Positions 21,069 to 35,439 of a DNA stretch of 35,439 nucleotides are shown here, one piece after another. The position numbers and the translations under genes are program-made. Below the pieces are notes generated by a model. That model worked only from the letters and a program-made list of their open reading frames with translations, searched no databases and was not told the origin of the DNA. How positions within the stretch are numbered: the stretch's first letter is position 1; each line of letters starts with the position of its first letter. The stretch is from Betaproteobacteria bacterium (GTDB taxonomy: Bacteria; Pseudomonadota; Gammaproteobacteria; Burkholderiales; SG8-39): contig VGIA01000016.1 in assembly GCA_016868105.1 (NCBI GenBank), forward strand, positions 1-35,439, in the 5' to 3' direction.

Positions 21069-21096
21069 GCAACGCTGCAGGTTGACGCAACGTTGC
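21069..21096. promoter_or_regulatory. Tandem GCAACG(C/T)TGC sites in a divergent promoter region
   Basis: Two copies lie 18 bases apart between the Bug receptor (start 21027) and the DoeB-like gene (start 21124): GCAACGCTGC at 21069-21078 (9 of 10) and the perfect palindrome GCAACGTTGC at 21087-21096. The second is identical to 12087-12096. TTGACG (21082-21087, plus strand) partly overlaps the second site and may be a -35. TATAGT on the minus strand (21050-21055) may be the -10 for the receptor gene. Confidence 0.6.
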
Positions 21097-21123
21097 TCAG
21101 GGTTCATTCCGGAAGGATTGCCG

Positions 21124-22140
21124 ATGACCGCCGCGACGCAGAACAAGAGCCTGATCTGGACCGAGATCGACTACGAGCGGGAGGGCAAGCAGGTCGGCTA
21201 CCTGCACCTGCCGCACTCGGTCACGCGCTCGGCCTACGGCACGATCGCGATCCCGATCGCGGTGATCCGCAACGGCGAGGGCCCGACGGTGTTCCTGATG
21301 GCCGGCAACCACGGCGACGAGTACGAGGGCCAGATCGTTCTCACCGGGCTGATCCGTTCGCTGGAGCCCGGGCAGATCCGCGGCCGCGTCATCGTCATGC
21401 CCGCGGCCAACCTGCCGGCGGCCATGGACGGCGCGCGTGTGTCGCCGATCGACGGCGGCAACCTCAACCGCGCCTTTCCCGGCGACCCCGAGGGCAGTCC
21501 GACCTTCGCCATCGCGCACTACATCAATACCACGCTCTACCCGATGGCCGACTACCACCACGATCTGCATTCGGGCGGCTCGTCGCTCGATTACCTGCCG
21601 TTCTGCTCGGCGCGCCTGGGGCCCGACGAGGAGCTGAACCGCAAGGCGCTCGCGGCGCTGCACGCCTTCGGCGCGCCGCTCAGCTTCGTCTGGGCCTATT
21701 CGCCCGACAACCGCCTCGCCGCCGCCTCGGCGATCGCCAACGGCGTGGTCGCGCTGGGCGGCGAATTCGGCGGCTGCGGGCGCGTGTCGATCGGCGGCGT
21801 GAAGATGGTCGAGCGCGGCGTGCGCAACCTGCTCGCCCATGCCGGCGTGCTCAGGGACTGGACCATCCAGCACGACGGCCCGACCCGCCTGGTCGAGCTG
21901 CGGGACAAGGACTACTACGTCTACGCGCCGGAGCCCGGCCTGTTCGAACCGTTCTGCGAGCTCGGCGAAACGGTGAAAAAGGGCCAGCCCTGCGGTCAGG
22001 TCCTCTTCCCCGACAATCCCGCGCGCGACCCGGTGCTGTGCCATTTCAAGCGCGACGCGCTGCTGGTGTGCAAACGCCACCCCGGCCGGGTCTTGCGCGG
22101 CGACTGCGTCGCCCATCTGGCGACCGATCGCGCGCGATGA
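21124..22140 (+). CDS. Zinc-dependent deacylase of the succinylglutamate desuccinylase/aspartoacylase (DoeB-like) family
   Basis: The 338-residue M14-like hydrolase has zinc ligands in GNHGDEYEG (His63, Glu66) and DLHSGG (His149), the substrate loop LNRAFPG at 114-120, and a catalytic Glu in LGGEFGG (Glu214). Overall it strongly resembles DoeB, the N-alpha-acetyl-diaminobutyrate deacetylase of ectoine degradation. However, no ectoine hydrolase (DoeA) or DoeC is seen here, so the acylated amine may differ. The ATG has GGAAGG eight bases upstream. Its stop overlaps the MFS start (ATGA), so a transporter for the acylated substrate or its product is made together with it. Cytoplasmic; no signal peptide. 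Confidence 0.87.
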   Translation: MTAATQNKSLIWTEIDYEREGKQVGYLHLPHSVTRSAYGTIAIPIAVIRNGEGPTVFLMAGNHGDEYEGQIVLTGLIRSLEPGQIRGRVIVMPAANLPAAMDGARVSPIDGGNLNRAFPGDPEGSPTFAIAHYINTTLYPMADYHHDLHSGGSSLDYLPFCSARLGPDEELNRKALAALHAFGAPLSFVWAYSPDNRLAAASAIANGVVALGGEFGGCGRVSIGGVKMVERGVRNLLAHAGVLRDWTIQHDGPTRLVELRDKDYYVYAPEPGLFEPFCELGETVKKGQPCGQVLFPDNPARDPVLCHFKRDALLVCKRHPGRVLRGDCVAHLATDRAR

Positions 22141-23351
22141 ACCTCGATCCCGGCGTCGCCCGCCGCGTCCTCGTCTACTCCTCCGCGGGCCATGCGCTGA
22201 TGCACCTGATGACCGCGTTCTACGCCGTCATCGTGCTCACGCTCGCGGTCGAATGGAAGCTGCCGGCCGAGCAGTTGCTGGCGCTCTATGCGCCCGCCAC
22301 CATCCTGCTCGGCGTCATGTCGCTGCCGGCGGGCTGGGCGTCCGACCGCTTCGGCGCGCCCGCGATGATGGTGGTGATGTTCCTCGGGCTCGGCCTGTCC
22401 TCGACCGCCTGCGGCCTGGTGCCGGCGGGCGACGCCTGGCTGCTGTCAGCCGGGCTGTGCGGTCTCGGCACCTTCGGCGCGATTTACCACTCGGTCGGCA
22501 TCGGCTGGATCATCCGCACCGCCAGCAGGCAGGGCCATGCGATGGGCGTGAACGGCCTGTGGGGGTCGGCCGGCCTTGCGCTCTACGGCATCGTCCCGGG
22601 CGTGCTGATCACGCTCGCCTCATGGCGCGCGGCCTTCATTGTCCCCGGCATCGTCTGTATCGTCCTCGGGCTGATGCTCTGGGTCGATCTCCTGCGCGGC
22701 CGCGTTGGCGACCGGCCGATGCCGGCGCGGGCAGGCGTTCAGCCGGGCAGGCGCCAGTTCTGGCGCGTCTTCTCCGTGCTCTCGGTCACCATGGCGCTGG
22801 AAGGCATCATCTGGCAGGCCGTCATGTTCGGCGCGGCGCTGGTGTTCGAGCAGCACGTGACGAACGTCCTGCTGCTGGGCCTCGCCACCTCGATGATCTA
22901 CGCCGTCTCCGGCCTGGCGCAGTACGCGCTCGGCCGGCGCATCATCGACCGCTACCCGCTGAAGACGACCTACGTCGTTGCCTCGGCATTGCAGATCGGC
23001 GCCATGCTGGCGCTGGCGGCGGGCAACGTCTGGCTGTCATTCGCAGGCGCGATCGCCTCTGCGGTGCTGTCGTCGGCCTCGGGGCCGATCGAGAACATCC
23101 TGATCGCGCGCTACACGCCGAGCCGCTACCACGGCCTGGGCTTCGGCGCCAAGTTCGTCGTCGCCTTCGGCGCCGCGCCGCTCGCCATCATGGCGATCGC
23201 CCGGATCCGCGAGGCGACCGGAAGCCTCGATCTGTTCTTCCTTGGGCTTGCCGGCGTCGCCGCGCTCGTCGCGGCTGTCGCGCTTTTGCTGCCGGCGAGC
23301 GATTTCGCGCGCGATGCAAGCGCGGCAACCGCGCCGGTTGCGGCCAAGTAG
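22137..23351 (+). CDS. MFS permease
   Basis: The 404-residue protein has about twelve hydrophobic helices in two six-helix halves, joined by a charged loop (residues about 185-205). The MFS loop motif between helices 2 and 3 appears as GWASDRFGAPAMM (residues about 65-77). Its ATG overlaps the deacylase stop. Members are proton-driven importers or exporters of small organic acids, sugars or drugs. Co-translation with a deacylase suggests transport of the acylated compound or the freed product. It ends before a convergent Crp/Fnr gene with a 142-base gap that contains a short hairpin and no gene. Confidence 0.88.
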   Translation: MNLDPGVARRVLVYSSAGHALMHLMTAFYAVIVLTLAVEWKLPAEQLLALYAPATILLGVMSLPAGWASDRFGAPAMMVVMFLGLGLSSTACGLVPAGDAWLLSAGLCGLGTFGAIYHSVGIGWIIRTASRQGHAMGVNGLWGSAGLALYGIVPGVLITLASWRAAFIVPGIVCIVLGLMLWVDLLRGRVGDRPMPARAGVQPGRRQFWRVFSVLSVTMALEGIIWQAVMFGAALVFEQHVTNVLLLGLATSMIYAVSGLAQYALGRRIIDRYPLKTTYVVASALQIGAMLALAAGNVWLSFAGAIASAVLSSASGPIENILIARYTPSRYHGLGFGAKFVVAFGAAPLAIMAIARIREATGSLDLFFLGLAGVAALVAAVALLLPASDFARDASAATAPVAAK

Positions 23352-23493: not shown

Positions 23494-24192
23494 TCAGCGC
23501 CGATGCGTGAAGGCCTCGAGCGCCGCCGTGTCCGTGATCACGAGCGTACCGCGGCGGGACTGAAGCAAGCCGCGCTTTTTCAGGTCGCCGAGGGTCGCGT
23601 TCGTGAACTGGCGCGTCACCCCCGAAATGGCGGCGAGGTCCTCGTTGGTGAGCTTCAGGTCGATCTGCATGCCATGCGGCGTGGGTTGCGCGAAGCGCTC
23701 GGAAAGCGCGAGCAGGACCGTGCAAAGGCGCCCCGACGCATTCTGCGTCTCCAGCGAAACGGCGAGATGCGCGACCCAGCGCAAGCGCACCGAGAGTGCC
23801 CGGATGACCGCAAGCCCGACCTCCGGAAACCGGCGCACCAGCGCGTTGAACCGCTCGATCGACAGCGTGTAGATCACACAGGGCTCCAGGCAGCGTACCG
23901 TCATCTGGCGCGCGGTCGGAAGGCCGAGGTCCGCCGCGCCGAGCAGGTCACCCGGACCCCAGAACCCGGTGGTGCCGGTCCTGCCGTTGCGGCTCTGGTA
24001 GGACGACATGACGCGCCCACTCGAGAGAATGGCAACGTAATCGGCCGGCTGGCCCTGCGACCAGATGACACCGCCCTTCTGCAGCACGCGCCGTTCGCAC
24101 TGCTCGAGCACCGCGCTGCGGTACTCCAGGGGGATGGACCCGAGCACGTCGAGATGCCCGGAGGCGCGTGCGCTGGGCGAAGTGTCAGCCAT
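23494..24192 (-). CDS. Crp/Fnr-family transcriptional regulator
   Basis: The 232-residue regulator has a cyclic-nucleotide-binding-type beta barrel (about 20-130), a dimerisation helix (about 135-160) and a C-terminal winged helix (about 175-225) with recognition segment ISGVTRQFTNATL. It has no Fnr-type N-terminal Cys cluster, so it is not an obvious oxygen-sensing iron-sulfur Fnr. The start ATG at 24192 follows a strong ribosome-binding site (GGGGAGGGGG) and lies 17 bases after the TSUP stop, which makes it the last gene of the tctC-tctB-tctA-TSUP unit. It may regulate that unit or the neighbouring redox genes; the effector is unknown. Confidence 0.9.
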   Translation of the reverse strand: MADTSPSARASGHLDVLGSIPLEYRSAVLEQCERRVLQKGGVIWSQGQPADYVAILSSGRVMSSYQSRNGRTGTTGFWGPGDLLGAADLGLPTARQMTVRCLEPCVIYTLSIERFNALVRRFPEVGLAVIRALSVRLRWVAHLAVSLETQNASGRLCTVLLALSERFAQPTPHGMQIDLKLTNEDLAAISGVTRQFTNATLGDLKKRGLLQSRRGTLVITDTAALEAFTHRR

Positions 24193-24209: not shown

Positions 24210-25091
24210 CTAGAACGCAACATAGTACAGACCGATGGCGAACAGCACCACGGCGATGAAGGTCTTCAGCGCGCGATCGTTCATGCGCCGGCTGGCGAGC
24301 GGACCGAACATCGAACCGACAACGATTCCCGGCACCTCGAACGCGAGCAGGCGCCAGTCGACGCGCACGTCGAGCGCGAAATAAGCGAGCACGCTTGCCA
24401 CGAGCGGCACCATCGACGCGACAAGGCTCGTTCCGGTCGCCAAGTAGACTGGGTAGAAAAGCACGCTTGCGAGGAACGGCGTGATCAGGAACCCGCCGGC
24501 AATGCCGAGCAGCGCGCCCACAAAGGCGATCGCGAACCCGCCCGCCGCGGCTGTCCAGGGACTGAAGTCGAAGTGCTCCCCGGCGAACCGCACGCGAATC
24601 TGCGTCAGACTGGTTTCGAGCGTGCGCGGCGCCTCCCTTGCCCCGTCCCGCGCCCCGCGCGAGGACGCCTCGCGCGCCCGGCGCAGGCGTGCATCGGCGG
24701 CGACCGCTGCCCCCCAGGCCTCGTAACCCACGCGTGCGGCCACCGCGAGCACGAGGAGCCCGAACGCGATACGGTACGCGCCGATGTCCGACAGCCACGC
24801 TTTCGAGGCCCAGGAACCGGCCACGGCCCCGAACGGCGCGCCGGCGCTGAAGGCGAGCGCAAGGCTCCACGAGATCCTGCGCTGCCGCTGGTAGAGCGGC
24901 ACCGCGACGATCCGGCTGGCGAACTCGAGGATCTGGTTCAGCACCTTGATCTGGTTCGCGTCGGCGATGCCGAGGATCGACAGGTGACCGATGCCGGCGA
25001 GGACGCCGCCGCCGCCCACGCCCATCGACATCACGAACCCCGCGAACACGCACCAGATGAACGCGACCCAGGGATCGAAGGTGAGCGGCAA
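24210..25091 (-). CDS. TSUP-family (TauE/SafE-type) membrane transporter
   Basis: The 293-residue protein has about eight to nine helices in two repeats, with Gly-rich turns GVGGGGVLAG near 24-33 and GIAGGFLITPF in the second half, typical of TauE/SafE/YfcA permeases. The proposed start is TTG at 25091, one base after the tctA stop; the first in-frame ATG would remove the first helix. A hydrophilic loop of about 45 residues (about 128-175) separates the halves. Family members move sulfonates, sulfite or organic anions, often as exporters. Coupling to a tripartite carboxylate importer suggests export of a product or counter-ion, which is inference. Confidence 0.88.
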   Translation of the reverse strand: MPLTFDPWVAFIWCVFAGFVMSMGVGGGGVLAGIGHLSILGIADANQIKVLNQILEFASRIVAVPLYQRQRRISWSLALAFSAGAPFGAVAGSWASKAWLSDIGAYRIAFGLLVLAVAARVGYEAWGAAVAADARLRRAREASSRGARDGAREAPRTLETSLTQIRVRFAGEHFDFSPWTAAAGGFAIAFVGALLGIAGGFLITPFLASVLFYPVYLATGTSLVASMVPLVASVLAYFALDVRVDWRLLAFEVPGIVVGSMFGPLASRRMNDRALKTFIAVVLFAIGLYYVAF

Positions 25092-25092
25092 G

Positions 25093-26592
25093 CTAGCGCC
25101 GCAGGCGCTGAACGAGCCGCCCCAGCTCCGGCCGCAGCGCCCAGAGGATGAAGCCGAAGGCGAGCGCCATCAGCACGCCGCTCTTCGGCCGCGTGAAGAA
25201 GATGGTCAGGTCGTTGGCGTAGTTCGCCATCGAGGTGAGGAAGTAACCCTCCGCGAGCGGCCCGAGAATCACGCCGAGGACCAGCGGCGCAGTCGGAAAG
25301 CCGAAGCGCTTCATGTAGAAACCGAGGATGCCGAAGGCGATGCAGATGTAGACGTCGGCGATGTTGTTGCGCACCCCGAAGGCGCCGACCAGGCTGAACA
25401 CGAGGATGAACGCGCAGATGATGGTCGGATCGGCGCGCATCAGCGTGGCGAATCCGCGCGCCACGAGGACCGAGATCACGATCATGAAGAGGTTGGCGAG
25501 CGTGAAGCTGGCGAAGATGGCGTACAGCATGTCCGGGCTCTTGGTGTAGAGCAGCGGCCCCGGCTGCACGCCGTGCAGCGTCAGCGCCGCGAGCATGATC
25601 GCCGCGGCCGCGCTGCCGGGAATCCCGAGCGTCAGCAGCGGAATCAGCGCAGTGCCGGTGGTGGCGTTCTTAGACGCTTCGGGTGCCGCGAGCCCGTCGG
25701 CGACACCGGTGCCGAACTCGCGACGTCGCGGATTCACCTGGCGCTCGATGCCGTAGGCCACGAGCGCGCCCACCGCCGCGCCGGCTCCCGGAATGATGCC
25801 GATGACGCTGCCGATGCCGGTGCCGCGGGCGACCGAACCGCGCAGCGCCCACAGCTCCCGCGGCCGCAGCACGCGCATGCGCGCCTTGTGCTTGGGTGCG
25901 AAACCGGCCGCCTGCCGCGCCGCGAGCGCATCCAGCACCTCGCCGATGGCGAAGATGCCGATCATCACGACGACGAAGTCGATGCCGTTGTCGAGGATCG
26001 GAACACCGAAGGTGAGCCGCGACACCCCGTACAGGGGATCGGTGCCGATCGAGCCGAGGACGATGCCGGTGAAGAGCGATACCAGCGACATCAGCAGATT
26101 GCCCTTGGCGATCGCCAGCACGCTGACCAGGCCGAGGAAGGTGGCGGCGAAGAACTCCGGCTGATCGAACGACAGCGCGAACTTCGCGAACGGTGGCGAC
26201 GCAAACGAGAGCAGCAGCGCGCTGAAGAGGCCGCCCACCGCGCTCGCCGTGATGGCGATCGACAGCGAGCGTTCGGGCCCTTCGCGCTGCGTGATCGGGT
26301 AGCCGTCCCAGCAGCTCGGCAGCGAATCCGGATCGCCCGGGATGTTCACCAGCAACGACGAAATCGAGCCGCCGAACACGCCGCCGACATAGATGCCACC
26401 GAGGAACAGCATCGCGAGCAGCGGCGACATGAAGTACGTGAACGGCAGGGCGATCGCCATCGCGTTGACGAACGAGATGCCCGGCAGCGCGCCTGCGATC
26501 ACGCCGACCAGGACGCCGACGACCATCACCGCGAGATTGAGCGGCTGCAGCGCGATCCAGATACCTTGGCCGAAGCCCGCGAGCGCGTCCAT
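25093..26592 (-). CDS. tctA: Tripartite tricarboxylate transporter large membrane subunit TctA
   Basis: The 499-residue protein has about twelve helices and the conserved TctA loops, including GVIAGALPGISFVNAMAIA near 30-48 and, in the second half, GSVIGIIPGAGAAVGALVAYG (start GSVIGIIPG). It is the channel subunit that uses the ion gradient to take up carboxylates handed over by TctC. The ATG lies 12 bases after the tctB stop, and its TAG is one base from the TSUP start. All three transporter subunits are intact and contiguous here, in receptor-small-large order. Substrate is determined by the receptor and is unknown. Confidence 0.95.
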   Translation of the reverse strand: MDALAGFGQGIWIALQPLNLAVMVVGVLVGVIAGALPGISFVNAMAIALPFTYFMSPLLAMLFLGGIYVGGVFGGSISSLLVNIPGDPDSLPSCWDGYPITQREGPERSLSIAITASAVGGLFSALLLSFASPPFAKFALSFDQPEFFAATFLGLVSVLAIAKGNLLMSLVSLFTGIVLGSIGTDPLYGVSRLTFGVPILDNGIDFVVVMIGIFAIGEVLDALAARQAAGFAPKHKARMRVLRPRELWALRGSVARGTGIGSVIGIIPGAGAAVGALVAYGIERQVNPRRREFGTGVADGLAAPEASKNATTGTALIPLLTLGIPGSAAAAIMLAALTLHGVQPGPLLYTKSPDMLYAIFASFTLANLFMIVISVLVARGFATLMRADPTIICAFILVFSLVGAFGVRNNIADVYICIAFGILGFYMKRFGFPTAPLVLGVILGPLAEGYFLTSMANYANDLTIFFTRPKSGVLMALAFGFILWALRPELGRLVQRLRR

Positions 26593-26604: not shown

Positions 26605-27159
26605 TCAGTAGATGCCCAGCAGGCGGTAGAGGGTGATGGTCGCGGTCTCGAACGCACCCTTGCCGCGATCCAGCGGCATCAGCGACACCTTGACAAACAC
26701 GTAGAGCAGCGCCACGGTGCCGATGCCCGCCGTGAGCACCACCGTGCGCGGACGGCGCACGCCGCCCAGCAGCAGTACGGCGGCGATGAAGACGGCGGTG
26801 GAAAACGCGAACCCGGCGATCGGCAGCGCCCAGGCGTACGCGAGCAGCACAGCGATCGCCGCAGCGCCACGACCTTCGTGATACTCGCCCTTGCCCCCGT
26901 CCACATCGTCGGGCACGCCTTTCGCGAACTGCCAGAGGCGGACGAGGAACACGACCGCCGCGCTCGCGAGCAGGCAGGCAAGCATGGCCTTCGGCCACAC
27001 CACCGGTCCGAGCGGGCCGCGCGTCATCGATGCGGTATCCACGCCCGGCGCGAGGTAAAAGGCGGAAAACACGCCCGCTGCGACGGCGACCGCCAGCGGT
27101 CCGGCGAGCCGGAGCAGCCGGGTTACGCGGAACTGCCGGCCCGGCGCGTGTGCAGGCAT
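26605..27159 (-). CDS. tctB: Tripartite tricarboxylate transporter small membrane subunit TctB
   Basis: The 184-residue, four-helix protein lies between the receptor and large subunit, as tctB does. Family features are the first helix followed by a short periplasmic stretch with FYLAPG, and the paired helices toward the C-terminus. It is seven bases downstream of the tctC stop, with a G-run (GGGGGG) as ribosome-binding site. TctB is poorly conserved in sequence, so identification rests on size, topology and the tctC/tctA neighbours. Confidence 0.9.
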   Translation of the reverse strand: MPAHAPGRQFRVTRLLRLAGPLAVAVAAGVFSAFYLAPGVDTASMTRGPLGPVVWPKAMLACLLASAAVVFLVRLWQFAKGVPDDVDGGKGEYHEGRGAAAIAVLLAYAWALPIAGFAFSTAVFIAAVLLLGGVRRPRTVVLTAGIGTVALLYVFVKVSLMPLDRGKGAFETATITLYRLLGIY

Positions 27160-27166
27160 GCCCCCC

Positions 27167-28132
27167 CTACTTCACCATCCCGTACTCTTTCATGAACCGC
27201 GTCACGTCCGCCGAGTTCTGCACAACGAACTTGAGCGTCTGTTCCGGCGACATGCGATCGATGCACGAGTACGTTTCAGCACAGAGCTTCTTCCATTCCG
27301 GGGAATCGAGCGCCCTGGCCGCGGCGGCGCGCAGTGTCGCGAGGGCCTCGGCCGGCACCTTTGCGGAGGCGACCACGCCTCGCCAGTTGGGCAGGTCGAT
27401 GTGCTGCCCGAACTCGGCTGACGCCGGCGTATCCGGGAAGGACGGGTGGCGCTTGGGCGCGAACACCACGAGCGGACGGTACTGCTTGGACTCGAGGAAC
27501 TGCACCACGTCGCCCGGCTCCTCGAACAGGACCTCGCTGTGACCTCCGAGCGGCGAGGCATAGCGCTCGCCCGGCTTCGCGAACGGCACGTTGACCATCG
27601 GGAAGCCCTGGGTGCCGAGGAACTTCACCGCGATGTCGTCGAGCGTGCCGTAGCCTGCGGTGGCAACGCGGATCTTGCCGGGATTCGCCTTTGCCTCGTC
27701 GAGCAACGCCTTGTAGTCCTTGAACCGGCTCGCGGCCGGCACGAAGAGCATGGAAGGAGAGGACTGGCCGATCGCGATATAGGAGAAATCCGGGATCTGC
27801 ATCTTTCCCAGTCCGCTCGCCCAGGCGGAAATCGTCAGCCCGGTCATGGTACCGATGGTGTAGCCGTCGGGCGTGCTGGTGAGGACCTTGGTGAGTCCCG
27901 CGTTGCCCGACGCGCCAGCGACGTTGGCCACCGGCACCGGTACGCCGAGGATCGGTTCCATGATCTTCGCCATCGCGCGGCCGATCTGGTCGGCGCCACC
28001 GCCCGGGCCGAAGTTGACGATCATGTCGATCGGCCGGGACGGGAACTTGCCCTGGGCATGCGCCGCGAGCGGCACTACGGAAATGCATGCCGCTGCCATG
28101 ACGACTGCGCGCGCGATCGTGATTCTCATCAT
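27167..28132 (-). CDS. tctC: Tripartite tricarboxylate transporter periplasmic receptor TctC (Bug family)
   Basis: The 321-residue receptor has a signal peptide ending AHA/QGKF after about residue 26, then the Bug-family start FPSRPIDMIVNFGPGGGADQIGR, shown by NFGPGGGADQ. It captures an organic acid in the periplasm for the TctAB channel encoded next. Two ATG codons in tandem (28132 and 28129) follow GGAGGGGG; an upstream in-frame ATG at 28195 is rejected because it would bury the signal peptide. It heads the operon tctC-tctB-tctA-TSUP-Crp/Fnr and has a promoter with a 16-bp palindrome about 90-130 bases upstream. Confidence 0.94.
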   Translation of the reverse strand: MMRITIARAVVMAAACISVVPLAAHAQGKFPSRPIDMIVNFGPGGGADQIGRAMAKIMEPILGVPVPVANVAGASGNAGLTKVLTSTPDGYTIGTMTGLTISAWASGLGKMQIPDFSYIAIGQSSPSMLFVPAASRFKDYKALLDEAKANPGKIRVATAGYGTLDDIAVKFLGTQGFPMVNVPFAKPGERYASPLGGHSEVLFEEPGDVVQFLESKQYRPLVVFAPKRHPSFPDTPASAEFGQHIDLPNWRGVVASAKVPAEALATLRAAAARALDSPEWKKLCAETYSCIDRMSPEQTLKFVVQNSADVTRFMKEYGMVK

Positions 28133-28223
28133 TTTGGGCCCCCTCCGGTCCGCTTGACGATGCCTGAACGGATGCCGGCTTCGTTCGGCCGGCACACATC
28201 CCCGACTCCCTTACTGAGGCATG

Positions 28224-28263
28224 CTAATTCTGATTCCCTGCCGCCGATGTCAACTAGTTGACA
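28224..28263 (-). promoter_or_regulatory. Promoter of the tct operon with 16-bp palindromic operator
   Basis: TGTCAACTAGTTGACA (28248-28263) is a perfect 16-bp palindrome. Its minus-strand TTGACA (28248-28253) is a consensus -35, followed 18 bases later by AATTAG (28224-28229) as a weak -10. The tctC start lies about 90 bases further on. A regulator bound here would cover the -35, suggesting repression. The same arrangement recurs at 33695-33734. No gene lies in the 209-base gap 28133-28341. Confidence 0.7.
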
Positions 28264-28341
28264 GCGCCAGGGCGACACCGGACCCCGAATGCAGCACGTT
28301 CCGCGTGCCGCGGGTTTGCGCGGCGGTCGTGTGCCCACCGC

Positions 28342-31278
28342 TCACGGCGCTCGCGTGACGCGGCACAGCAGGGTCTTCAGGTTGGTCTGGTCGGAGATCG
28401 GATCCCGCTGCGTCGGGTCGGTGAGGAAGTTCACCGAGCGCCAGGGATGGAAGGGCTGCCGTTCGCCCCAACCGATCGGCACGAACACGCTCGACTCGCG
28501 GATATTCGGCGTCACCCAGGCCACCGCTTCGATCGCGCCGTGCGCGGTCTCGATCCGCGCCCGGGCACCGTCTGCGATGCCGGCAGCGGCCGCGCGCAGC
28601 GGATGGATCTGCACGTACAGGTCGGACCACATTTCCTGCGCCTGCCAGAAGTAGTGGGTCCAGCTGTGAAACTGCGGCGCGGGCGGCCGTCCGGTGATGA
28701 GCTCGAGGTCGAACCCCCCCGCGCGCAGGCGCGCGCCCGGGGAATCGGCGCCCGGCTGCCGGATGCGCGCCGGCGAGGCGCAGACCGGCGTCTTCGTGAA
28801 GGGGGTCAGCACCCCCGCGGCGTCGTCGCCCTCGTCGAAGCTCACGTAAGGGAGGTCGATCAGCTGCTCGCGCTCGCTGTAGAACTCCGGCAGCGCGGAG
28901 AGGCCCATGGCGCGGAACTTCGCTTCCATCGCTTCGGTGTAGAACTCGAGCCTGCCGCTCGGGGTCGGAAAGCGCTTTCCGGGATGGCCATGGGGCGAGC
29001 TTCCCTCGAGGAACAGCGTCTCTTGCTCGGCGGCGTCCTCTTGCGCGAGCGGAAAGCGCACCCAGCGCCACGGAGCCGCGTGAAGGCGCTTCTGCGTGAT
29101 GCCGCGCATCTGCGGGTTGTCGATGCACATCTCGTCCCAGAAGCGCGCCGAGTCCTTGTACTCCTCCTTCAGCACGTCGTCGAAGCCGAAGCGCTTGCCC
29201 AGTTCGATCCAGATCCAGTCGTCGGACCGCGCCTCGCCCGGCGGCTCGATCATCTTGTCGATCCACACCACGCGACGGTCGTCGGTGGAGCGCGCGATCT
29301 CGCCCTTCTCGATGCCGGTGGCGGCCGGCAGTACGTAGTCGGCGAAAGCCGAGGTCTCGTTGGCGAAGAGCTCGATGTGCACCAGCAGGTCGAGCGCGAG
29401 GAACGCTTCCCGCGCCGCCTGCTGTCCCGGCCAGTTCGACATCGGGTTGTTGCAAGCGATCATCGCCCTGAGGGGGTAGGGCTTGCCCTTGCGCATCGAT
29501 TCGATCCAGCCGGTCGGGCTGCGGCGGATCATCGGGCGCTCGACTTTCGCCCGCCGCGCCGGCGGCGCGGCGGGCGAGATCGGTGCGCCGATCGACAGGT
29601 TGAGGAAAGCGCCCCCGCGCCGGCCCCAGTTGCCGGTGATCGCCGCAAGAAACATCAGCGCGCGGTTGGTCTGCACAGCATTGGTGTGCTGGTTGATGCC
29701 GCGGCTGGCGAAGAGCACGCAGCCGTCCGCGCCGGCAATCTCCGCGGCCAGTCGCCGGATGTCCGCTGCCGCGATCCCTGTGATCGGCGCCGCCCAGTCG
29801 GGCGTGTAGCCGCGCTCCGCGATGAAGTCGCGCCACCGCTCCCAGCCCTCGACCCATTGCTCGCAGAAGCGCCGGTCGTGCAGGCCCTCCTCGAGGATGT
29901 GATTCGCCATCGCCAGCGCGAGCGCCAGGTCGGTCCCGCTGCGGATCGGCAGCCAGCGGTCCGCCTTGCTGGCGGTGACGGTGTACCGCGGGTCGACCAC
30001 CACCATCCGCGCACGGTTGCGCACGCGCCAGTCGTTGATCATGCCGAAATTGACCGGACGTGCCTCGGCCTGGTTCTCGCCGAAGTAGACGTACATCGAC
30101 GCGCTGCCGAGGTCGGCCGCCGTGTAGCTGTTAGGGCAGGTGGTGTCCCCTTGCGTCAGCTCGTAGGCGAGGTGTTTGCCGGCGGCGCAGAACGGATCGG
30201 TGCCTTCGACGTTCGGCGTTCCCCACATCTGCGCGAAGAGACGGATGTAGCCGTTGCGGGTAATCGTGCCGGTGCGCGTGCCGGCAAAGATGCCAAGCGC
30301 TTCGGCCCCCCAGGTCTCGCGCGCGCGCCGCATGCGCGCCGCGATCTCGTCGAGTGCCTGGTCCCAGGAGACCGGCTCGAAGCGCCCCTCGCCGCGTTCG
30401 CCGACGCGCTTCAGCGGCCGCGTCAGCCGCTGTGGATTGTTGTAGAGCTGCACCGTGAGTTGCGACTTCGGGCAGACCTTGCCGCGCAACACGGGGTCCT
30501 CCTCGTTCCCGGTGACCCGCACCAGCCGGTCGCCGCGAAAGTGGTACTTCGTGGAGCAGCCGTTGAAGCAGATGTTGCACCCGCCCGGCACTACCCGGTC
30601 GGCCTCTCGTTCCTCGCGCCGCACGCGGTAGGGGAAATCCGGCCGCGTCCCCTGCAGGCTGCCGCTCATCAGCGCCGGGCGCCGCCGGCCCTCGACCGCG
30701 TCCGCGACCGCGCCGCCGCGGGCCGGCGTTTCACGCGGCAGGCGATCGAGGTACACGGTCGCCGGCCCCATCAGGAAGTGGTCCTGGTCGCGCACCGTGC
30801 GGCCCTCGGCGGCCGCCTGCTTCAGGTGGCCGCTGCGGGGGCCGAAGGAAATGGCGTGACCCGGACAGACGCTCGCGCAGGCGGTGCTCGCGGCGCCGGC
30901 CGCGCGGCTCTCGGCGCACAGGTCGCATTTCACCGCGTGGTGATCCACGCGGTCGTAACCCATCGCACCGTACGGGCAGGCAATCACGCACTCGCCGCAG
31001 CCGGTGCAGCGGTCCTCGACCACCCGCACCACACCGGTGGCCGGATCCTTCTCGATCGCCTTCGGGTTAACCGGGCAGGCGCGCAGGCATGCAGGCCGCT
31101 CGCAATGCTGGCAGGTGACGGTGAGGAAATCGAGCGCCGGTGCGGCTGCGTCGCCCAGCCACACCACCTTGTTGCGGTATTCGCCCGGCCCGAGGCCGTG
31201 TTCCTGCTTGCACGCGGCCTCGCAGCTCTTGCAGCCGATGCAGCGCTCGAGGTCGATCATGAGGGCGAGACGGTCCAT
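28342..31278 (-). CDS. Fused four-cluster ferredoxin / molybdopterin bis-MGD oxidoreductase
   Basis: One 978-residue frame holds what are usually two subunits. Residues 1-200 form a DmsB/PhsB-like protein with four cysteine sets: C13/16/19/23, C56/59/64/68, C91/94/97/101 and C118/121/134/138. From about 205 to the end is a DMSO-reductase-family catalytic chain with an N-terminal [4Fe-4S] set (C234, C237, C241, C269) and a candidate molybdenum ligand Cys364 in GTDPFCAAGKH. No twin-arginine signal is present, so the active site probably faces the cytoplasm. Met204 (ATG at 30669) could have been the start of a separate catalytic subunit. It follows a cytochrome b-like gene by two bases, suggesting a membrane quinone-linked enzyme. 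The substrate is unknown. Confidence 0.85.
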   Translation of the reverse strand: MDRLALMIDLERCIGCKSCEAACKQEHGLGPGEYRNKVVWLGDAAAPALDFLTVTCQHCERPACLRACPVNPKAIEKDPATGVVRVVEDRCTGCGECVIACPYGAMGYDRVDHHAVKCDLCAESRAAGAASTACASVCPGHAISFGPRSGHLKQAAAEGRTVRDQDHFLMGPATVYLDRLPRETPARGGAVADAVEGRRRPALMSGSLQGTRPDFPYRVRREEREADRVVPGGCNICFNGCSTKYHFRGDRLVRVTGNEEDPVLRGKVCPKSQLTVQLYNNPQRLTRPLKRVGERGEGRFEPVSWDQALDEIAARMRRARETWGAEALGIFAGTRTGTITRNGYIRLFAQMWGTPNVEGTDPFCAAGKHLAYELTQGDTTCPNSYTAADLGSASMYVYFGENQAEARPVNFGMINDWRVRNRARMVVVDPRYTVTASKADRWLPIRSGTDLALALAMANHILEEGLHDRRFCEQWVEGWERWRDFIAERGYTPDWAAPITGIAAADIRRLAAEIAGADGCVLFASRGINQHTNAVQTNRALMFLAAITGNWGRRGGAFLNLSIGAPISPAAPPARRAKVERPMIRRSPTGWIESMRKGKPYPLRAMIACNNPMSNWPGQQAAREAFLALDLLVHIELFANETSAFADYVLPAATGIEKGEIARSTDDRRVVWIDKMIEPPGEARSDDWIWIELGKRFGFDDVLKEEYKDSARFWDEMCIDNPQMRGITQKRLHAAPWRWVRFPLAQEDAAEQETLFLEGSSPHGHPGKRFPTPSGRLEFYTEAMEAKFRAMGLSALPEFYSEREQLIDLPYVSFDEGDDAAGVLTPFTKTPVCASPARIRQPGADSPGARLRAGGFDLELITGRPPAPQFHSWTHYFWQAQEMWSDLYVQIHPLRAAAAGIADGARARIETAHGAIEAVAWVTPNIRESSVFVPIGWGERQPFHPWRSVNFLTDPTQRDPISDQTNLKTLLCRVTRAP

Positions 31279-31280
31279 GC

Positions 31281-32063
31281 TCACCACGCCCTGAGGTGCC
31301 ACCACGTGATCGGGCCGCCGTCGGCGACATAGCCCGCGAAGAAGGTCACCGTCACGACGTGGATCAGCAGGCCGATCACGAGAAGTGCTGCGAGCGCCAG
31401 ATGCAGCGGGCGCCACCAGGCCTGATCCATGCCGACCGATGCGCGCGTGCCCACGAGGCGGTTCTCCTCCCGCACGAGCCTTAGATATGCGAGCGTCAGC
31501 CACGGCGCGCGCACCCAGTGCGCGAGGGAGGGCGAAAACGTCGCCTCGTTCGCCGCCGGGTCGAGCGCGGCGAGGACCGCGCGCTTGCGCGAGATGAGGT
31601 CGGCCAGCGCAGCCCGGTCCACGGCCGGCGTGACGCGGAATCCGCGCTCCTTGCTGCCGAAGGTCGCCGCCATGCGGGCCGAAAGCCGTACGCGCGCCCA
31701 GACCCCGAGAACGGCGAGACCGAGCAGCGCGAGCAGCAACAGCGCCGGTGGGCGCCGCAGGAACCCGCCCGAGTGCACCGCCACCAGCACTGCGCCGGCG
31801 CACGCGCACACGACGTGCGCCACGAACCACGCCGGCGCCGCGTGTCCGCGGCCCGAGCGCTTCACGATCAGGAATGCCACCGAGACGAGCAGCAGCCCCG
31901 CCCCAGCGACGCCGGCAAGGTACAGCTCCGGGCTGCCGGGCGTGTGCCACGCCTCCGGCGCGAAGGGTCGCAGCAGCGTGAACCAGGCCGCGATTGCGAA
32001 TGCGGCCCCGCCGACCAGCGCGACGAGCAGGCGATCGGGCAGGTCGGGATGGTGTCCGGACAT
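31281..32063 (-). CDS. Membrane cytochrome b-like subunit, probable di-haem quinone anchor
   Basis: The 260-residue protein has about five hydrophobic helices. Two of them carry a His pair 14 residues apart: H...H in VAHVVCACAGAVLVAVH near 84-98, and again in PLHLALAALLVIGLLIH near 223-237. That is the spacing of axial haem ligands across a four-helix b-type cytochrome bundle. It is two bases upstream of the fused iron-sulfur/molybdenum gene, so it likely passes electrons between the quinone pool and that enzyme, like NarI or FdnI. I did not recognise a closer family. Haem binding is predicted from His spacing only. Confidence 0.7.
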   Translation of the reverse strand: MSGHHPDLPDRLLVALVGGAAFAIAAWFTLLRPFAPEAWHTPGSPELYLAGVAGAGLLLVSVAFLIVKRSGRGHAAPAWFVAHVVCACAGAVLVAVHSGGFLRRPPALLLLALLGLAVLGVWARVRLSARMAATFGSKERGFRVTPAVDRAALADLISRKRAVLAALDPAANEATFSPSLAHWVRAPWLTLAYLRLVREENRLVGTRASVGMDQAWWRPLHLALAALLVIGLLIHVVTVTFFAGYVADGGPITWWHLRAW

Positions 32064-32097
32064 CCGCCCGATCCTACCCGGTGGGGCGCGGCTCCGG

Positions 32098-33294
32098 CTA
32101 TGCCCTGAGCTGCAGGGCGTCGATCGCCGCGCGCGAGAAGAAGTTGATGCGCGAGCGCTGGTCCATGTCGCCGAAGGTCTGCAGATAGCGCACGACGCCA
32201 GACACCCCGCTCGAATCCCAGTGCGGGTAGTCGCTCGTGCAGGCCATGTTGCGGCCCTCGAACCACTTCATCGTCTCGGCGAGGAGCGCTTCCTCGGGCT
32301 CGAAGGAGCAGATCACGCACTGGCGCTTGAAGTACTCGGAGGGCGCCATCTTCAGGCCGATCATCTCCTTGGGCCGCGCCGTGTAGTGATTGTCGAGGCG
32401 GAACAGCATGTACGGCACCCAGGTCGCGCCCGCTTCGGCGAACATGACCATCAGCTTGGGATGCCGCTCGAGCACGCCGTAACCGAGCAGCCCGGCCACT
32501 CCGGTCGCCATCTCGAGCGGATGCGAGACGGCATGGGCGATCCAGTAACGGTCGTACTTGTAGTCGGTGCTGTAGGTCGCGTTGTACGTGCCGGTCGCCT
32601 CGTGGAACATCAGCGCCATGCCGAGGTCGGTCATCGTCTTCCAGACGATATCCCAGTCTTCGTTCCAATAGCGCACGCCCTGCATCACGTTTGGACGCAT
32701 CCAGACCGCGGTCGCGCCCATTTTGTGGCAGCGCTTGATCTCGTCGACCGCCCACTTCGGCTTGAGCGGGATCGTGGCGCACCAGAAATGGCGCTTGCCG
32801 GTGGCGAAATCCTTGCTGGTCCAGTCGTTCAGCGCCCGCATCACCGCGTATTGGAAGTCCGCGTTCGTGATATCGGGCGTGAACAGTCCGAGCGTCGGGA
32901 ACCAGACCGCACAGTCGATCCCTGACAGGTCCATGTCGATGTCGCGGTACTTGAAGCAGTGCTCGTGCGCATGCTGGTAGGAGAGGCCCTCGCCGCGCGG
33001 ACGCTGGTCACCGCAACCCTCGGTGCGCCCGGGACCCCAGCCGGTCATCTTCTGGTACACGCGGCCCTCGATCAGCATCCGGGGCGCCCCGCGGTTGTCG
33101 GTCACGGGCTTGGGCGCCATGTGCTGCCATTCCTTGTCGAGGTACTTCGTGAACGCCTCGGGCGGCTCGATGATGTGGCGGTCGCAGTCGATGACGAAGT
33201 ACTCCTTGCCGACCTTCTTCTTCGGCGAACGGTACTTCGCCTCGACCGCTGCGTAGTAGTCCTCGAGCTTCTGCTTGCGCACTGCCTGTCCCAT
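32098..33294 (-). CDS. Amidohydrolase family 2 protein (ACMSD-like metal-dependent hydrolase/decarboxylase)
   Basis: The 398-residue TIM-barrel protein has an N-terminal metal motif IDCDRHIIEP (residues about 34-43), a mid-barrel MFHEATGT, and the catalytic Asp region TSDYPHWD near the C-terminus. These fit the Amidohydro_2/ACMSD group, which includes non-oxidative decarboxylases of aromatic or muconic acids as well as hydrolases. A strong ribosome-binding site (GGAGGAG) precedes the ATG. It lies between a small [2Fe-2S] ferredoxin gene and a cytochrome b-like gene in one operon. Together with the co-regulated carboxylate importer, a decarboxylase or ring-cleavage hydrolase role is reasonable, but the substrate cannot be named. 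Confidence 0.85.
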   Translation of the reverse strand: MGQAVRKQKLEDYYAAVEAKYRSPKKKVGKEYFVIDCDRHIIEPPEAFTKYLDKEWQHMAPKPVTDNRGAPRMLIEGRVYQKMTGWGPGRTEGCGDQRPRGEGLSYQHAHEHCFKYRDIDMDLSGIDCAVWFPTLGLFTPDITNADFQYAVMRALNDWTSKDFATGKRHFWCATIPLKPKWAVDEIKRCHKMGATAVWMRPNVMQGVRYWNEDWDIVWKTMTDLGMALMFHEATGTYNATYSTDYKYDRYWIAHAVSHPLEMATGVAGLLGYGVLERHPKLMVMFAEAGATWVPYMLFRLDNHYTARPKEMIGLKMAPSEYFKRQCVICSFEPEEALLAETMKWFEGRNMACTSDYPHWDSSGVSGVVRYLQTFGDMDQRSRINFFSRAAIDALQLRA

Positions 33295-33342
33295 GTGCTC
33301 CTCCGTGCTAGGTGGTTACCGATGCCGCGACGCCGCCCGGCG

Positions 33343-33663
33343 TCAGGCGATGTTGTCGATCAGCAGGTGTTCGACGACCTGGCCACCGACGATGTGCTTT
33401 TCCAGGACCTCCTGCGCGTCCTGCTTGGTCGGCACGTGGTACCAGGTGCCTTCCGGATAGACAACGACGGTCGGTCCGTGTTCGCAGTGATCGAGGCAAC
33501 CGGCGCGATTGATGCGCACCTCGCCCTTCAGGCCGGCCTTCGCGGCCCCGCTCTTCAGGTGATTGAAAATATCTTCGCTGGCGCGGCCCAGGCAGCAGCC
33601 GCGCGGATGGCCGGCGGGCCGCTCGTTGAGGCAGACGAAGACGTGTCGCTTAAATCCGGCCAT
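33343..33663 (-). CDS. Thioredoxin-like [2Fe-2S] ferredoxin
   Basis: The 106-residue protein begins FKRHVFVCLNERPAGHP and has cysteines at 10, 22 and 23 (the last two in RGCCL), then AGCLDHCEHGPTVVVYPEGTWY, with the C-x3-C pair that completes the cluster. It is the small Shethna-like ferredoxin common in betaproteobacteria, a soluble electron carrier. ATG 33663 is chosen; a TTG two codons earlier is possible and neither has a strong ribosome-binding site. It is the first gene behind the second copy of the 16-bp palindrome and leads the amidohydrolase, cytochrome and molybdoenzyme genes, so it probably serves that pathway. Confidence 0.9.
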   Translation of the reverse strand: MAGFKRHVFVCLNERPAGHPRGCCLGRASEDIFNHLKSGAAKAGLKGEVRINRAGCLDHCEHGPTVVVYPEGTWYHVPTKQDAQEVLEKHIVGGQVVEHLLIDNIA

Positions 33664-33694
33664 CGGCAATTCTAGTGTGAATCGAGTCGCAACC

Positions 33695-33734
33695 CTAATC
33701 GCACGGCCGCGCGCGCGCTGTCAACTACTTGACA
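33695..33734 (-). promoter_or_regulatory. Promoter of the ferredoxin-amidohydrolase-molybdoenzyme operon, second copy of the operator
   Basis: TGTCAACTACTTGACA (33719-33734) matches the palindrome at 28248-28263 in 15 of 16 positions. On the minus strand TTGACA (33719-33724) is followed after 18 bases by GATTAG (33695-33700), the same spacing and nearly the same -10 as at the first site. The ferredoxin ATG lies about 32 bases downstream. The site is also upstream of the divergent Rieske gene. Confidence 0.68.
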
Positions 33735-33817
33735 CGAGGCTTCGTTTTCCAAGAGGACGCGCGATTGCCATGGTTACAATCCGCCCCTCGTCGCATCGTC
33801 CGAACGGGGGCCCCAGC

Positions 33818-34144
33818 GTGGCGAAGAAGGTGGCGAAGAAGGCGAAGGGAACAGTGCTGTGCAAGGCCGATGCGGTACCGGCCGATGGCCTGCTGCAATG
33901 CGCAGCGGGCAGTCTGAAAGTCTGCGTCGCGCGCTCCGGCAAGGACTTCTACGCCTTCCAGTCCGAGTGCCCGCACAAGCGCACGCCGCTGTGCGACGGC
34001 GCGCTTGACGGGCACGTGCTCACCTGCCTCGATCATATGTGGCAGTGGGACATCCGCAGCGGCGAACCCGAGGGCCTTGCCGAGCAGCCGATCAGGACGT
34101 TCAAGCTGCGGCGCGACGGCGACAGCCTCGTGCTCGTCGAATAG
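33818..34144 (+). CDS. Rieske [2Fe-2S] ferredoxin
   Basis: The 108-residue soluble protein carries the Rieske ligands Cys51-x-His53 (CPHKRT) and Cys70-x2-His73 (CLDHMW), with no catalytic oxygenase domain, so it is an electron-transfer ferredoxin. GTG 33818 is preceded by GGGGG at good spacing and by a TACAAT at 33775-33780 that could be a -10 box. An in-frame ATG at 33770 would add 16 residues of unlikely composition and erase that box. It is divergent from the ferredoxin-amidohydrolase operon across the shared palindrome and is followed by the triple-Mop gene. Its partner oxygenase or reductase is not in the window. Confidence 0.85.
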   Translation: MAKKVAKKAKGTVLCKADAVPADGLLQCAAGSLKVCVARSGKDFYAFQSECPHKRTPLCDGALDGHVLTCLDHMWQWDIRSGEPEGLAEQPIRTFKLRRDGDSLVLVE

Positions 34145-34171
34145 AAGTCGCGGAATCGAGGAGGGAATCCG

Positions 34172-34792
34172 ATGGAGATCAGCGCCTGCAACAGCATCGA
34201 CGGGACCGTCACGTCGATGAAGAAGGGAAAGGCGACCACCGATCTGCGCATGTCGAGCGCGATCGGCGAACTTGCGCTGGTCGTGACGAGCTCCGCCGTC
34301 GAGGCGCTGGCGCTTGCGCCTGGGGACACGGTGGTCGCGTACTTCCGCGAGATCGACGTCATGCTGACGGCCGGAGGCGGTACGATCAGCACCAAGAACC
34401 GCTTTCCCGCGCGCGTCGTCGGTGAGGTCAAGAAGGGGAACGTCACGGCCGAGTTCCAGCTCGCCCTCGCTGGCGGCAGGACGATCACCGCCGTGGTCGC
34501 CCGGGCGGCTGCGGAGGACATGGGTCTCGCGCCAGGCAGCGAAGTCCTCGCCTGCGTGCGCGAAGGCGACCTGCTGCTCGCCAAGGGCGGCCAGCTGAGC
34601 GTGCGCAATCGCAGCACGGGTACGATCACCGACCTGCGCCCGGGAACGGTGACCACCGAGGTCACCGTCGCGGTGGAGGGGGGTACCGTGCAGGCGTTGC
34701 TCGCCCGTTCCACCGCGGAGGCGATGCGCCTCGCGATGGGCGACCGCGTGCAGGCCCTGTCGCGTGAGCGCGACACCCTGCTCGCGCGCTGA
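34172..34792 (+). CDS. Triple TOBE/Mop-domain molybdate-binding protein
   Basis: The 206-residue protein consists of three tandem molbindin-like repeats of about 65 residues (roughly 3-66, 73-137 and 142-206). Each begins with SxxNxxxG(T/E)(V/I) and later shows the pattern LAPGDxVxAxxRExDxLL. Molbindins bind molybdate or tungstate oxyanions in the cytoplasm, usually with one or two such repeats per chain. GGAGGG precedes the ATG by six bases, 27 bases after the Rieske gene. Its neighbourhood contains a molybdopterin enzyme, so it plausibly stores molybdate for cofactor supply. No DNA-binding (ModE) or ABC domain is attached. Confidence 0.85.
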   Translation: MEISACNSIDGTVTSMKKGKATTDLRMSSAIGELALVVTSSAVEALALAPGDTVVAYFREIDVMLTAGGGTISTKNRFPARVVGEVKKGNVTAEFQLALAGGRTITAVVARAAAEDMGLAPGSEVLACVREGDLLLAKGGQLSVRNRSTGTITDLRPGTVTTEVTVAVEGGTVQALLARSTAEAMRLAMGDRVQALSRERDTLLAR

Positions 34793-34796
34793 ATCG

Positions 34797-34997
34797 GCGC
34801 GCGGGCCGCCCACGATAGCCGCTCGAGGCGGCGGCAAGTCCCTGACGCAGCGGCGCCGCGCGACCCCGGTCTGCGCGTCGAAGGGGCTCGTCGAGGGCGG
34901 GCCGGGCGTTCGCTTCGAGGCGACCTGGGTGGGCGACCCCTGGCCGGCGTTCCTCGTGCGCTTCGAGGGGCGCGTCTACGGATACCTGAACCGCTGC
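34797..34997 (+). pseudogene. Truncated Rieske-type ferredoxin remnant
   Basis: The frame reads ATPVCASKGL, then GVRFEATW, then PAFLVRFEGRVYGYLNRC. That is the usual N-terminal half of small Rieske proteins, up to the first cluster cysteine. The expected continuation (C-x-H and the second C-x2-H) is missing. Instead, after the codon for Cys at 34995-34997, the similarity changes to a different protein in another frame, and this frame stops at 35009. No convincing start codon is visible within 34797-34850. It appears to be the surviving 5' part of a deleted gene. Confidence 0.7.
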
Positions 34998-35344
34998 AGG
35001 AGTACCTGAGCGACATTTACGAGGAGGCTGACGAGCCGGCGTGGTCGGTGCCGCAGATCACCGAGACTCGCGCGGCGCTCGCGCGCCTGCTCGGCATCAA
35101 CCCGGCCGAGATCGCGTTCACCAAGAACACCACCGAGGGGCTGACGATCGCTGCCCACGCATTCGACCTCGCGGCCGGCGACAACATCGTGCTCACCGAC
35201 ATGGAGCACGTCGCCAAAGTCTGGGTGTGGAAGCACTGGCAGGCGAAGGGAGTGGAGATCCGCGTCGCGCGCAACCGCGCCGGCCGGCTGCCGGCGGAGG
35301 CGTTCGAGGAGGGCCTGCGCCACGCGCGCGCAGGCCGGGGCTAA
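34997..35344 (+). pseudogene. Internal fragment of a class V aminotransferase
   Basis: The frame reads EYLSDIYEEADEP, then ARLLGINPAEIAFTKNTTEGL, then DNIVLTDMEHVAKVWVW. These are N-terminal-half motifs of isopenicillin-N-epimerase/cysteine-desulfurase-like class V PLP enzymes. About 115 codons remain, without the N-terminus, the PLP lysine or the C-terminal domain, and the frame ends in TAA at 35342-35344. It abuts the Rieske remnant directly at about 34997, so both are probably products of one deletion. It cannot encode an active enzyme. Confidence 0.72.
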
Positions 35345-35439
35345 AGCCGCTTCCCCGGCAGCGCCTGAATGCGTCCCTGCACGTAGGTCGCGGCGACACA
35401 GCGGTCGTCGCCGAGCATGATGAGGGCGAACAGCTTCTC
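35341..35439 (-). CDS. C-terminal end of an unidentified protein (partial)
   Basis: Read on the minus strand, 32 codons ending in TAG at 35341-35343 give EKLFALIMLGDDRCVAATY followed by VQGRIQALPGKRL. The pattern of a short hydrophobic strand, GDDR, then VxATYVxGR, resembles the closing beta strands of amidohydrolase/deaminase composite domains. The fragment is too short to name. It overlaps the stop of the aminotransferase remnant by three bases. Confidence 0.55.
   Translation of the reverse strand, partial: EKLFALIMLGDDRCVAATYVQGRIQALPGKRL

Follow-up and report, generated by a model that had tools for sequence, protein, structure and literature searches.

A conserved pair of palindromic operators and a CRP/FNR-family gene point to a small local regulon for organic acid uptake and processing

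Gene organisation of the locus

The window analysed here is a 35,439-nt stretch of betaproteobacterial DNA (contig VGIA01000016.1) from a 2.51 Mb assembly of 190 contigs that is 96% complete. Our subject is a pair of matching palindromes in this window, each preceding an operon, and the Crp/Fnr-family gene proposed to act on both. One operon runs tctC-tctB-tctA-TSUP-Crp/Fnr, and the other comprises fdx, an amidohydrolase gene, a small membrane protein gene and a molybdoenzyme gene. An earlier interpretation made from the letters alone (hereafter the sequence-only reading) had given this order correctly, except that the product it called a cytochrome (31281–32063) has no Pfam match at 1e-3. At the level of sequence, the data support a CRP/FNR regulon of local reach, notable for its unusual half-site and for the rarity of its module; the pathway is narrowed, not solved. 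The matching palindromes offer a testable circuit of one regulator gene, two operators and up to three promoters. The principal features are:

23494–24192, minus strand: Crp/Fnr-family regulator, proposed to bind the two operators (PF00027 and PF13545; orthologs at 66% and 68%)
24210–25091, minus strand: TSUP/TauE-family transporter, candidate sulfite exporter (PF01925; orthologs at 62% and 57%)
25093–26592, minus strand: tctA (PF01970; orthologs at 82% and 71%)
26605–27159, minus strand: tctB (PF07331)
27167–28132, minus strand: tctC, periplasmic binding protein, a tripartite tricarboxylate transporter (TTT) receptor (PF03401; orthologs at 74% and 64%)
28248–28263, no strand: operator 1, TGTCAACTAGTTGACA, a perfect 16-bp palindrome of the form TGTCA-N6-TGACA, 5' of tctC
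28342–31278, minus strand: fused 4Fe-4S subunit and DMSO-reductase-family molybdoenzyme in a single open reading frame (ORF)
31281–32063, minus strand: small membrane protein, directly preceding the molybdoenzyme gene here and in five other genomes
32098–33294, minus strand: amidohydrolase/decarboxylase-type enzyme (PF04909; orthologs at about 80% in two other genomes)
33343–33663, minus strand: fdx, [2Fe-2S] ferredoxin (NCBIfam 2Fe-2S ferredoxin models, below cut-off; orthologs at 69% and 64%)
33719–33734, no strand: operator 2, TGTCAACTACTTGACA, between the divergent fdx and Rieske genes
33818–34144, plus strand: divergent Rieske ferredoxin (PF00355 in the window and in one relative; found at all three loci described below)

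Because the molybdoenzyme ORF ends only 78 bases from operator 1, read-through from this operon into the tct genes is possible.

Operator pair and homologous loci

Both palindromes are located where the sequence-only reading had placed them, and they differ at one base. A search of the whole assembly, which that reading had named as a check, found two exact matches to TGTCA-N6-TGACA, both in the window. With up to three mismatches to the palindromes, no further site was found in the window (0.01 expected in shuffles), and the rest of the assembly gave one extra match, with three mismatches, on another contig. The backward control pattern of TGTCA-N6-TGACA had no match in the assembly, and none of 300 first-order shuffles of the window contained two exact matches.

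The module is rare. We scanned about 85,000 species for the amidohydrolase with two peptide patterns and found loci with an ortholog, besides that of the window's own genome, in only two betaproteobacterial metagenome-assembled genomes, G048 (JACPYS010000058.1, which has a groundwater isolate name) and G484 (JAHFRL010000159.1); because two peptide patterns were used, distant relatives may be missed. Among 101 relatives, only the window's genome (100%) and G048 (80%) have an amidohydrolase that exceeds about 40% identity across most of the protein, the next full-length match being 33%, and in a phylum sample the window's genome alone has it (1/398). Orthologs of the Crp/Fnr protein occur in two of 98 family genomes (the window's own, G000, and G048), in 1/399 genomes of an order sample (the window's own) and in 1/199 of a sample around G484 (G484 itself); these samples overlap in part, and those for the order and phylum were thinned. 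Within the genus, one of 13 genomes, some of the others being incomplete, carries the regulator. The module therefore has the scattered distribution that transfer between lineages would be expected to produce. Plasmid records held no close amidohydrolase, with matches of 30–32% only, in three cyanobacterial records.

At the G048 locus, fdx, the amidohydrolase gene, tctC, tctB, tctA and TSUP form a single run behind one operator, TGTCAACTGGTTGACA, before fdx, and continue into genes for a SoxC-type sulfite dehydrogenase and a cytochrome c; the Crp gene comes next, and a second operator lies between the divergent Rieske gene and an M20 peptidase gene. The G484 locus reads TSUP fragment, Crp, Rieske, operator TGTCAAGTATATGACA, fdx, amidohydrolase, a second tct set, MmgE/PrpD protein, tctB, tctA, tctC, operator TGTCAACTAGTTGACA and TSUP. 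It spans two contig ends that are probably adjacent, as they hold amidohydrolase residues 1–307 and 316–398. TGTCAAGTATATGACA occupies the position homologous to window operator 2. Both relatives thus have two operators at the locus, and the operator is retained although gene order differs between the loci. The palindrome is therefore kept in genomes with the same genes, where the sequence-only reading had regarded its loss as fatal to its case, and the suggestion that the two units form one small regulon is supported by this conservation and by the G048 run, with fdx, amidohydrolase and tctCBA-TSUP behind one operator. The TSUP C-terminal fragment that adjoins Crp in G484 (L048:6924-7103), with the full TSUP gene on the other contig, is a trace of operon rearrangement.

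The core common to the three loci comprises ferredoxin, amidohydrolase, TctABC, TSUP, Rieske protein and the Crp/Fnr regulator. When 219 window ORFs (stop to stop, at least 80 aa) were compared with the fetched stretches of G048 and G484, with antisense shadows and a second weak tctC match set aside, the Crp/Fnr gene was the sole DNA-binding gene common to the three loci. The MmgE/PrpD protein of G484 and the M20 peptidase of G048 were rejected as core pathway members, each being present at one locus only.

Across the three genomes, all six operators share the core TGTCA-N6-TGACA, an inverted repeat of two 5-base half-sites with a 6-base spacer, an invariance that is partly built in for G484 because both of its sites were detected with that very pattern (exact or up to one mismatch), those of G048 having been found with a 16-mer search. 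In pairwise comparison, the six sites agree at 12–16 of 16 bases, and their flanks at 1–9 of 20 bases upstream and 8–20 of 45 downstream; the operator is conserved, the flanks are not. The 5-6-5 layout is, from its sequence, the operator architecture of the CRP/FNR superfamily. A literature search on a Crp operator with TGTCAA/TTGACA in betaproteobacteria found no paper, which speaks for that search alone.

Promoter geometry

The sequence-only reading had taken the minus-strand TTGACA end of each palindrome as a −35 element, followed after 18 bases by an (A/G)ATTAG −10. The hexamers AATTAG and GATTAG are indeed present downstream of the two window palindromes on the minus strand, but the same offset in the relatives holds GCGCTA, GCGTAT and GGGCAG, and the G484 fdx site has ATGACA in place of TTGACA. 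What is conserved is a TANNNT hexamer 3–4 bases further down. The corresponding predicted elements in the window, with offsets counted from the palindrome end, are:

28221–28226, minus strand: predicted −10 TAGCAT of the tctC promoter, at +21, with the operator centre at −41.5 and an inferred start at about 28214
33692–33697, minus strand: predicted −10 TAGGGT of the fdx promoter, at +21, with the operator centre at −41.5 and an inferred start at about 33685
33775–33780, plus strand: predicted −10 TACAAT of the Rieske promoter, with the operator centre at −60.5, class I-like

The predicted transcription starts are shifted three bases from those expected earlier (about 28217 and 33688). Among the relatives, the fdx promoter has TATCTT at +21 in G484 and TACTGT at +22 in G048, so that TANNNT stands at +21/22 in four of the five promoters facing fdx, tctC or TSUP, with the operator centred at −41.5 or −42.5. 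With the background rate taken from the same intergenic stretches, the chance that any two-position slot would hold 4/5 is, with 35 slots allowed for, about 6e-6. These five promoters were picked after inspection; a count over all nine gene-facing directions gives 4/9, with a chance of about 1.5e-4. In the Rieske direction of G048, TAGAAT places the operator centre at −59.5, again class I-like. Escherichia coli CRP motifs cluster at −41.5 (class II) and −61.5 (class I; PMC5957442), and we read the placement at fdx and tctC as class II activator geometry.

The same stretch of promoter bears on a different explanation, in which the palindromes are operators of a repressor (MarR, GntR or another family, encoded elsewhere) that blocks a normal promoter using the TTGACA half-site as its −35. 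TTGACA is a perfect −35, (A/G)ATTAG follows it after 18 bases at both window sites, and repressor sites overlapping the −35 are common. We nevertheless consider such a repressor unlikely: AATTAG and GATTAG match TATAAT at only three of six positions and are not conserved, and TTGACA gives way to ATGACA at G484 fdx, whereas TGTCA/TGACA and the TANNNT at +21/22 (4/5) are kept. Nor is any MarR or GntR gene common to the fetched stretches of the three loci, and the GntR gene situated some 5 kb away from the second site of G484 is unmatched in the window. The MarR and GntR types, proposed in the sequence-only reading as candidate regulators, were thus set aside in favour of the CRP/FNR family, to which both the operator architecture and the only shared DNA-binding protein belong.

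The Crp/Fnr-family regulator

The product of 23494–24192 combines an N-terminal cNMP_binding domain (PF00027, 5.6e-16) with a C-terminal Crp-type helix-turn-helix (PF13545, 5e-16). A structure model agrees with a CRP-like fold, but is of low confidence, with a mean predicted local distance difference test score of 65 and TM-scores of about 0.4, and serves here for that agreement only. Because the operators have the 5-6-5 layout and this is the only shared DNA-binding protein, it is the likely regulator of both sites.

The recognition helix of the three orthologs reads R-Q-F-(T/A)-N-(A/T)-T-L (R194-Q195-F196 in the window); the alignment gives R-E-T-V-N-K for the nearest solved CRPs. The invariant R194 aligns with the R of RETVN, CRP position 180. 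The usual half-sites of CRP and FNR are TGTGA and TTGAT, and a Gln replacing Glu in the helix may accompany a C replacing G in the half-site; CooA, presumably, follows the same rule, with Gln178 at the CRP E181 position. The conserved TGTCA half-site together with an R-Q helix is a data point on operator reading by CRP/FNR proteins. From the alignments, N198 of the regulator lies at the position of N199 in Sinorhizobium meliloti Clr, a protein that has no conserved E181 and reads TGT with Q184, R195 and N199 (PMC10127613). The same paper gives R180, E181 and R185 as the DNA-contact residues of CRP, with E181 varying outside the CRP main cluster, and RE(T/M)VGR as the motif of cAMP-dependent CRP, in place of which the regulator has R-Q-F-(T/A)-N-(A/T).

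The effector pocket also differs from that of cAMP-dependent CRP: the alignments show Ala86 instead of the pocket Glu, with Arg95 kept and followed by Gln or Met. In CRP, the cAMP-pocket residues are E72, R82 and S83. Four Cys are invariant in the orthologs (C32, C101, C105 and C157), none of them in the N-terminal 30 residues where the FNR cysteine cluster lies, and we take them not to occupy FNR positions. The heme ligands of CooA, Pro2 and His77 (PMC12937710), are not kept either, since the three orthologs have A, P or L as residue 2 and H13 as their one invariant His.

Proposed regulatory circuit

We consider it probable, from the sequence comparisons above, that the palindromes are sites of the 23494–24192 Crp/Fnr protein, that it acts as activator of both operons, and that the regulon imports and processes an organic acid. 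A Crp/Fnr dimer would contact each TGTCA half-site through one of its recognition helices. At tctC and fdx, the dimer would be centred at −41.5 (class II), beside RNA polymerase, where it would replace a poor −35 contact and recruit polymerase to the TANNNT −10. As the regulator gene is the last of a controlled operon in the window, the circuit should self-amplify, and autoactivation is probable there. The organic acid would enter via TctABC and be processed by the amidohydrolase with the ferredoxin and Rieske electron carriers, and TSUP would probably export sulfite released from an organosulfur substrate.

Several observations weigh against this circuit. The module was found in no more than three genomes. 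The G484 copy of TGTCAACTAGTTGACA, identical to window operator 1, is separated from the TSUP start downstream by about 390 bases and is overlapped by an open frame, and at the +21/22 offset the TSUP promoter of G484 offers only CAGATT. A convincing −10 is absent in the Rieske direction of G484 and in the M20 peptidase direction of G048, and a plain sigma-70 consensus scan of 27000–35439 reported neither window promoter, a result that fits the need for an activator and is no proof of one. G048 has five more exact TGTCA-N6-TGACA sites outside the locus, three of them belonging to a single repeat family, and the backward control pattern has one match in G484, so that single sites in these larger genomes are not proof.

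These extra matches are also what would speak for the palindromes being mobile or structural repeats, or chance occurrences, that play no regulatory part. The dispersed G048 repeat (359–407 bp; L059 and L060, on contigs C29 and C56) carries one variant of the pattern, TGTCATCAACTTGACA, away from the module. The remaining two extra G048 sites overlap open frames, one of them adjoining a DUF3592 frame, and the stretches around all five held no module homologs except a 32% tctC-type match on one. At the operon sites, however, the flanks are barely alike, the position before homologous genes is conserved and the chance expectation is about 0.01 per window, which leaves an origin as repeats or by chance hardly credible.

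A further possibility is that the sites are of Crp/Fnr type but bound by another paralog (a global CRP, FNR or DNR), so that the operons would answer to global redox or carbon signals and the local protein would serve other targets. A first look with the Crp query gave five candidates in the window's own genome, the local protein included, and the others remain candidate binders; global signals are often integrated at CRP/FNR sites. A global regulator would be expected to have many sites, yet the assembly has two exact ones; TGTCA differs from the usual CRP TGTGA and FNR TTGAT, and the local regulator accompanies the module in all three genomes and occurs in no other sampled genome. We judge control by a paralog to be quite improbable and retain the local protein as the binder.

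Molybdoenzyme and substrate class

The sequence-only reading had counted the molybdoenzyme as part of the regulon. It does stand in the operon in the window, and only there: its orthologs in G048 and G484 (70–72%) are on other contigs, where they follow PhaC- or PPK2-like genes, and the fetched stretches around them lack an exact operator, so we rejected it as a fixed regulon member. The best operator-like match near these orthologs is one 1-mismatch site (in stretch L071), about 4 kb past the end of the molybdoenzyme gene. In three genomes of the family that lack the regulator, orthologs at 69–72% lie behind the same membrane-protein gene, and within the family the molybdoenzyme is over-represented with the regulator (2/2 versus 3/96, p 0.002). 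The fusion of 4Fe-4S and molybdopterin parts is itself kept, nearly full length, in five other genomes (69–72%), with that membrane-protein gene ahead of it.

A TauE-family exporter at the loci and a SoxC-type enzyme in G048 suggest an organosulfur acid as the substrate. TSUP is present at all three loci, and in G048 only it is followed by SoxC and cytochrome c: the SoxC-type sulfite dehydrogenase, which scores 641 bits with TIGR04555 (cut-off 420), starts 13 bases past the TSUP stop, with cytochrome c next. These two genes form the operon tail (L034:8072-9869), and a second SoxC-like gene (57%) lies elsewhere in G048. Amidohydrolases include 4-sulfomuconolactone hydrolase, and there are TTT transporters for sulfolactate. 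TSUP and the G048 SoxC-type enzyme together are a first lead to the substrate of this uptake and breakdown module. TauE is a sulfite exporter of C2-sulfonate metabolism according to a reference title cited in PMC5373536 and PMC12421959.

Other results point away from an organosulfur substrate. The window's own assembly has no SoxC match, no desulfonase-named family was matched among the core genes in the family searches, the amidohydrolase matching only PF04909, and the window's molybdoenzyme, scored against formate dehydrogenase and thiosulfate reductase models, falls far short of the cut-offs. Its best solved relative is a polysulfide/thiosulfate reductase. An NrfD-like membrane subunit is of SoeC type; the product of 31281–32063, with no Pfam match at 1e-3, gives no sign of being one, and in this respect the 28342–32063 unit does not correspond to SoeABC. 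We did not take a SuyB-like gene (GD_AH domains) near G484 TSUP to establish a sulfolactate pathway: it is encoded on the opposite strand, next to GntR and succinate-dehydrogenase-like genes, and its 82% ortholog in G048 is on another contig. An organosulfur acid is, tentatively, the likeliest substrate class when set against a plain aromatic or aliphatic acid.

A bolder reading, which we regard as doubtful, is that the regulator represents an undescribed CRP/FNR branch, a pathway-specific sensor with a TGTCA half-site and four invariant Cys, lacking the cAMP Glu and the heme ligands. It would respond to an organosulfur acid, to sulfite or to redox state, and would run a mobile module in which the PF04909 enzyme and two ferredoxins break down the imported organosulfur acid by an undescribed route.

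Comparison with known systems

The closest solved structures to the regulator are GlxR and mycobacterial CRP, which match over almost the whole length, with E. coli CRP lower in the list. They share the two-domain architecture and, at the operators, class II spacing; the regulator departs from them in R-Q-F instead of R-E-T, in Ala86 for the cAMP-pocket Glu, and in a TGTCA half-site in place of TGTGA.

CooA, a CO sensor of the CRP/FNR family, binds the 16-bp palindromic operator TGTCGGCNNGCCGACA, with TGTCGGCTAGCCGACA as a site in Desulfovibrio vulgaris (PMC545781). The likeness extends from a 16-bp palindrome with outer TGTC/GACA to an activator role and the CRP fold, and CooA structures are among the Protein Data Bank matches of the regulator. 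The inner bases of the CooA operator, however, are AAC/GTT and those here GGC/GCC, the proteins are far apart (match to 2hkx, E 3.7e-13) and the targets here are not CO genes.

Another parallel is CprK, a CRP/FNR activator dedicated to one catabolic unit, with a gene that adjoins its targets. It differs in giving only a weak fold match (15% identity) and in having an operator spacer of 4 bases against 6 here; this spacer is reported in PMC2610375, along with CprK's role as halorespiration activator and its o-chlorophenol-type ligands.

For the genes of the module, the nearest parallel is in organosulfur degraders such as Advenella and Variovorax, for which one paper (PMC5373536) treats TTT receptors, TauE and, in Variovorax, a molybdopterin oxidoreductase acting on sulfite together. 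Amidohydrolase and Crp are absent from the main-text wording of that source, and the window's assembly has no SoxC match.

Neighbouring genes

Two features of the window outside the core deserve mention. The first lies 3' of the Rieske gene:

34172–34792, plus strand: triple TOBE/Mop molybdate-pterin-binding protein

This triple-Mop protein is possibly a molybdate store for the molybdoenzyme, and it is unmatched in the fetched stretches of the G048 and G484 loci. The second is a further tctC-type receptor gene at 20062–21027, beside an MFS-type transporter frame (21093–23351, plus strand), which has a 39% match on stretch L056.

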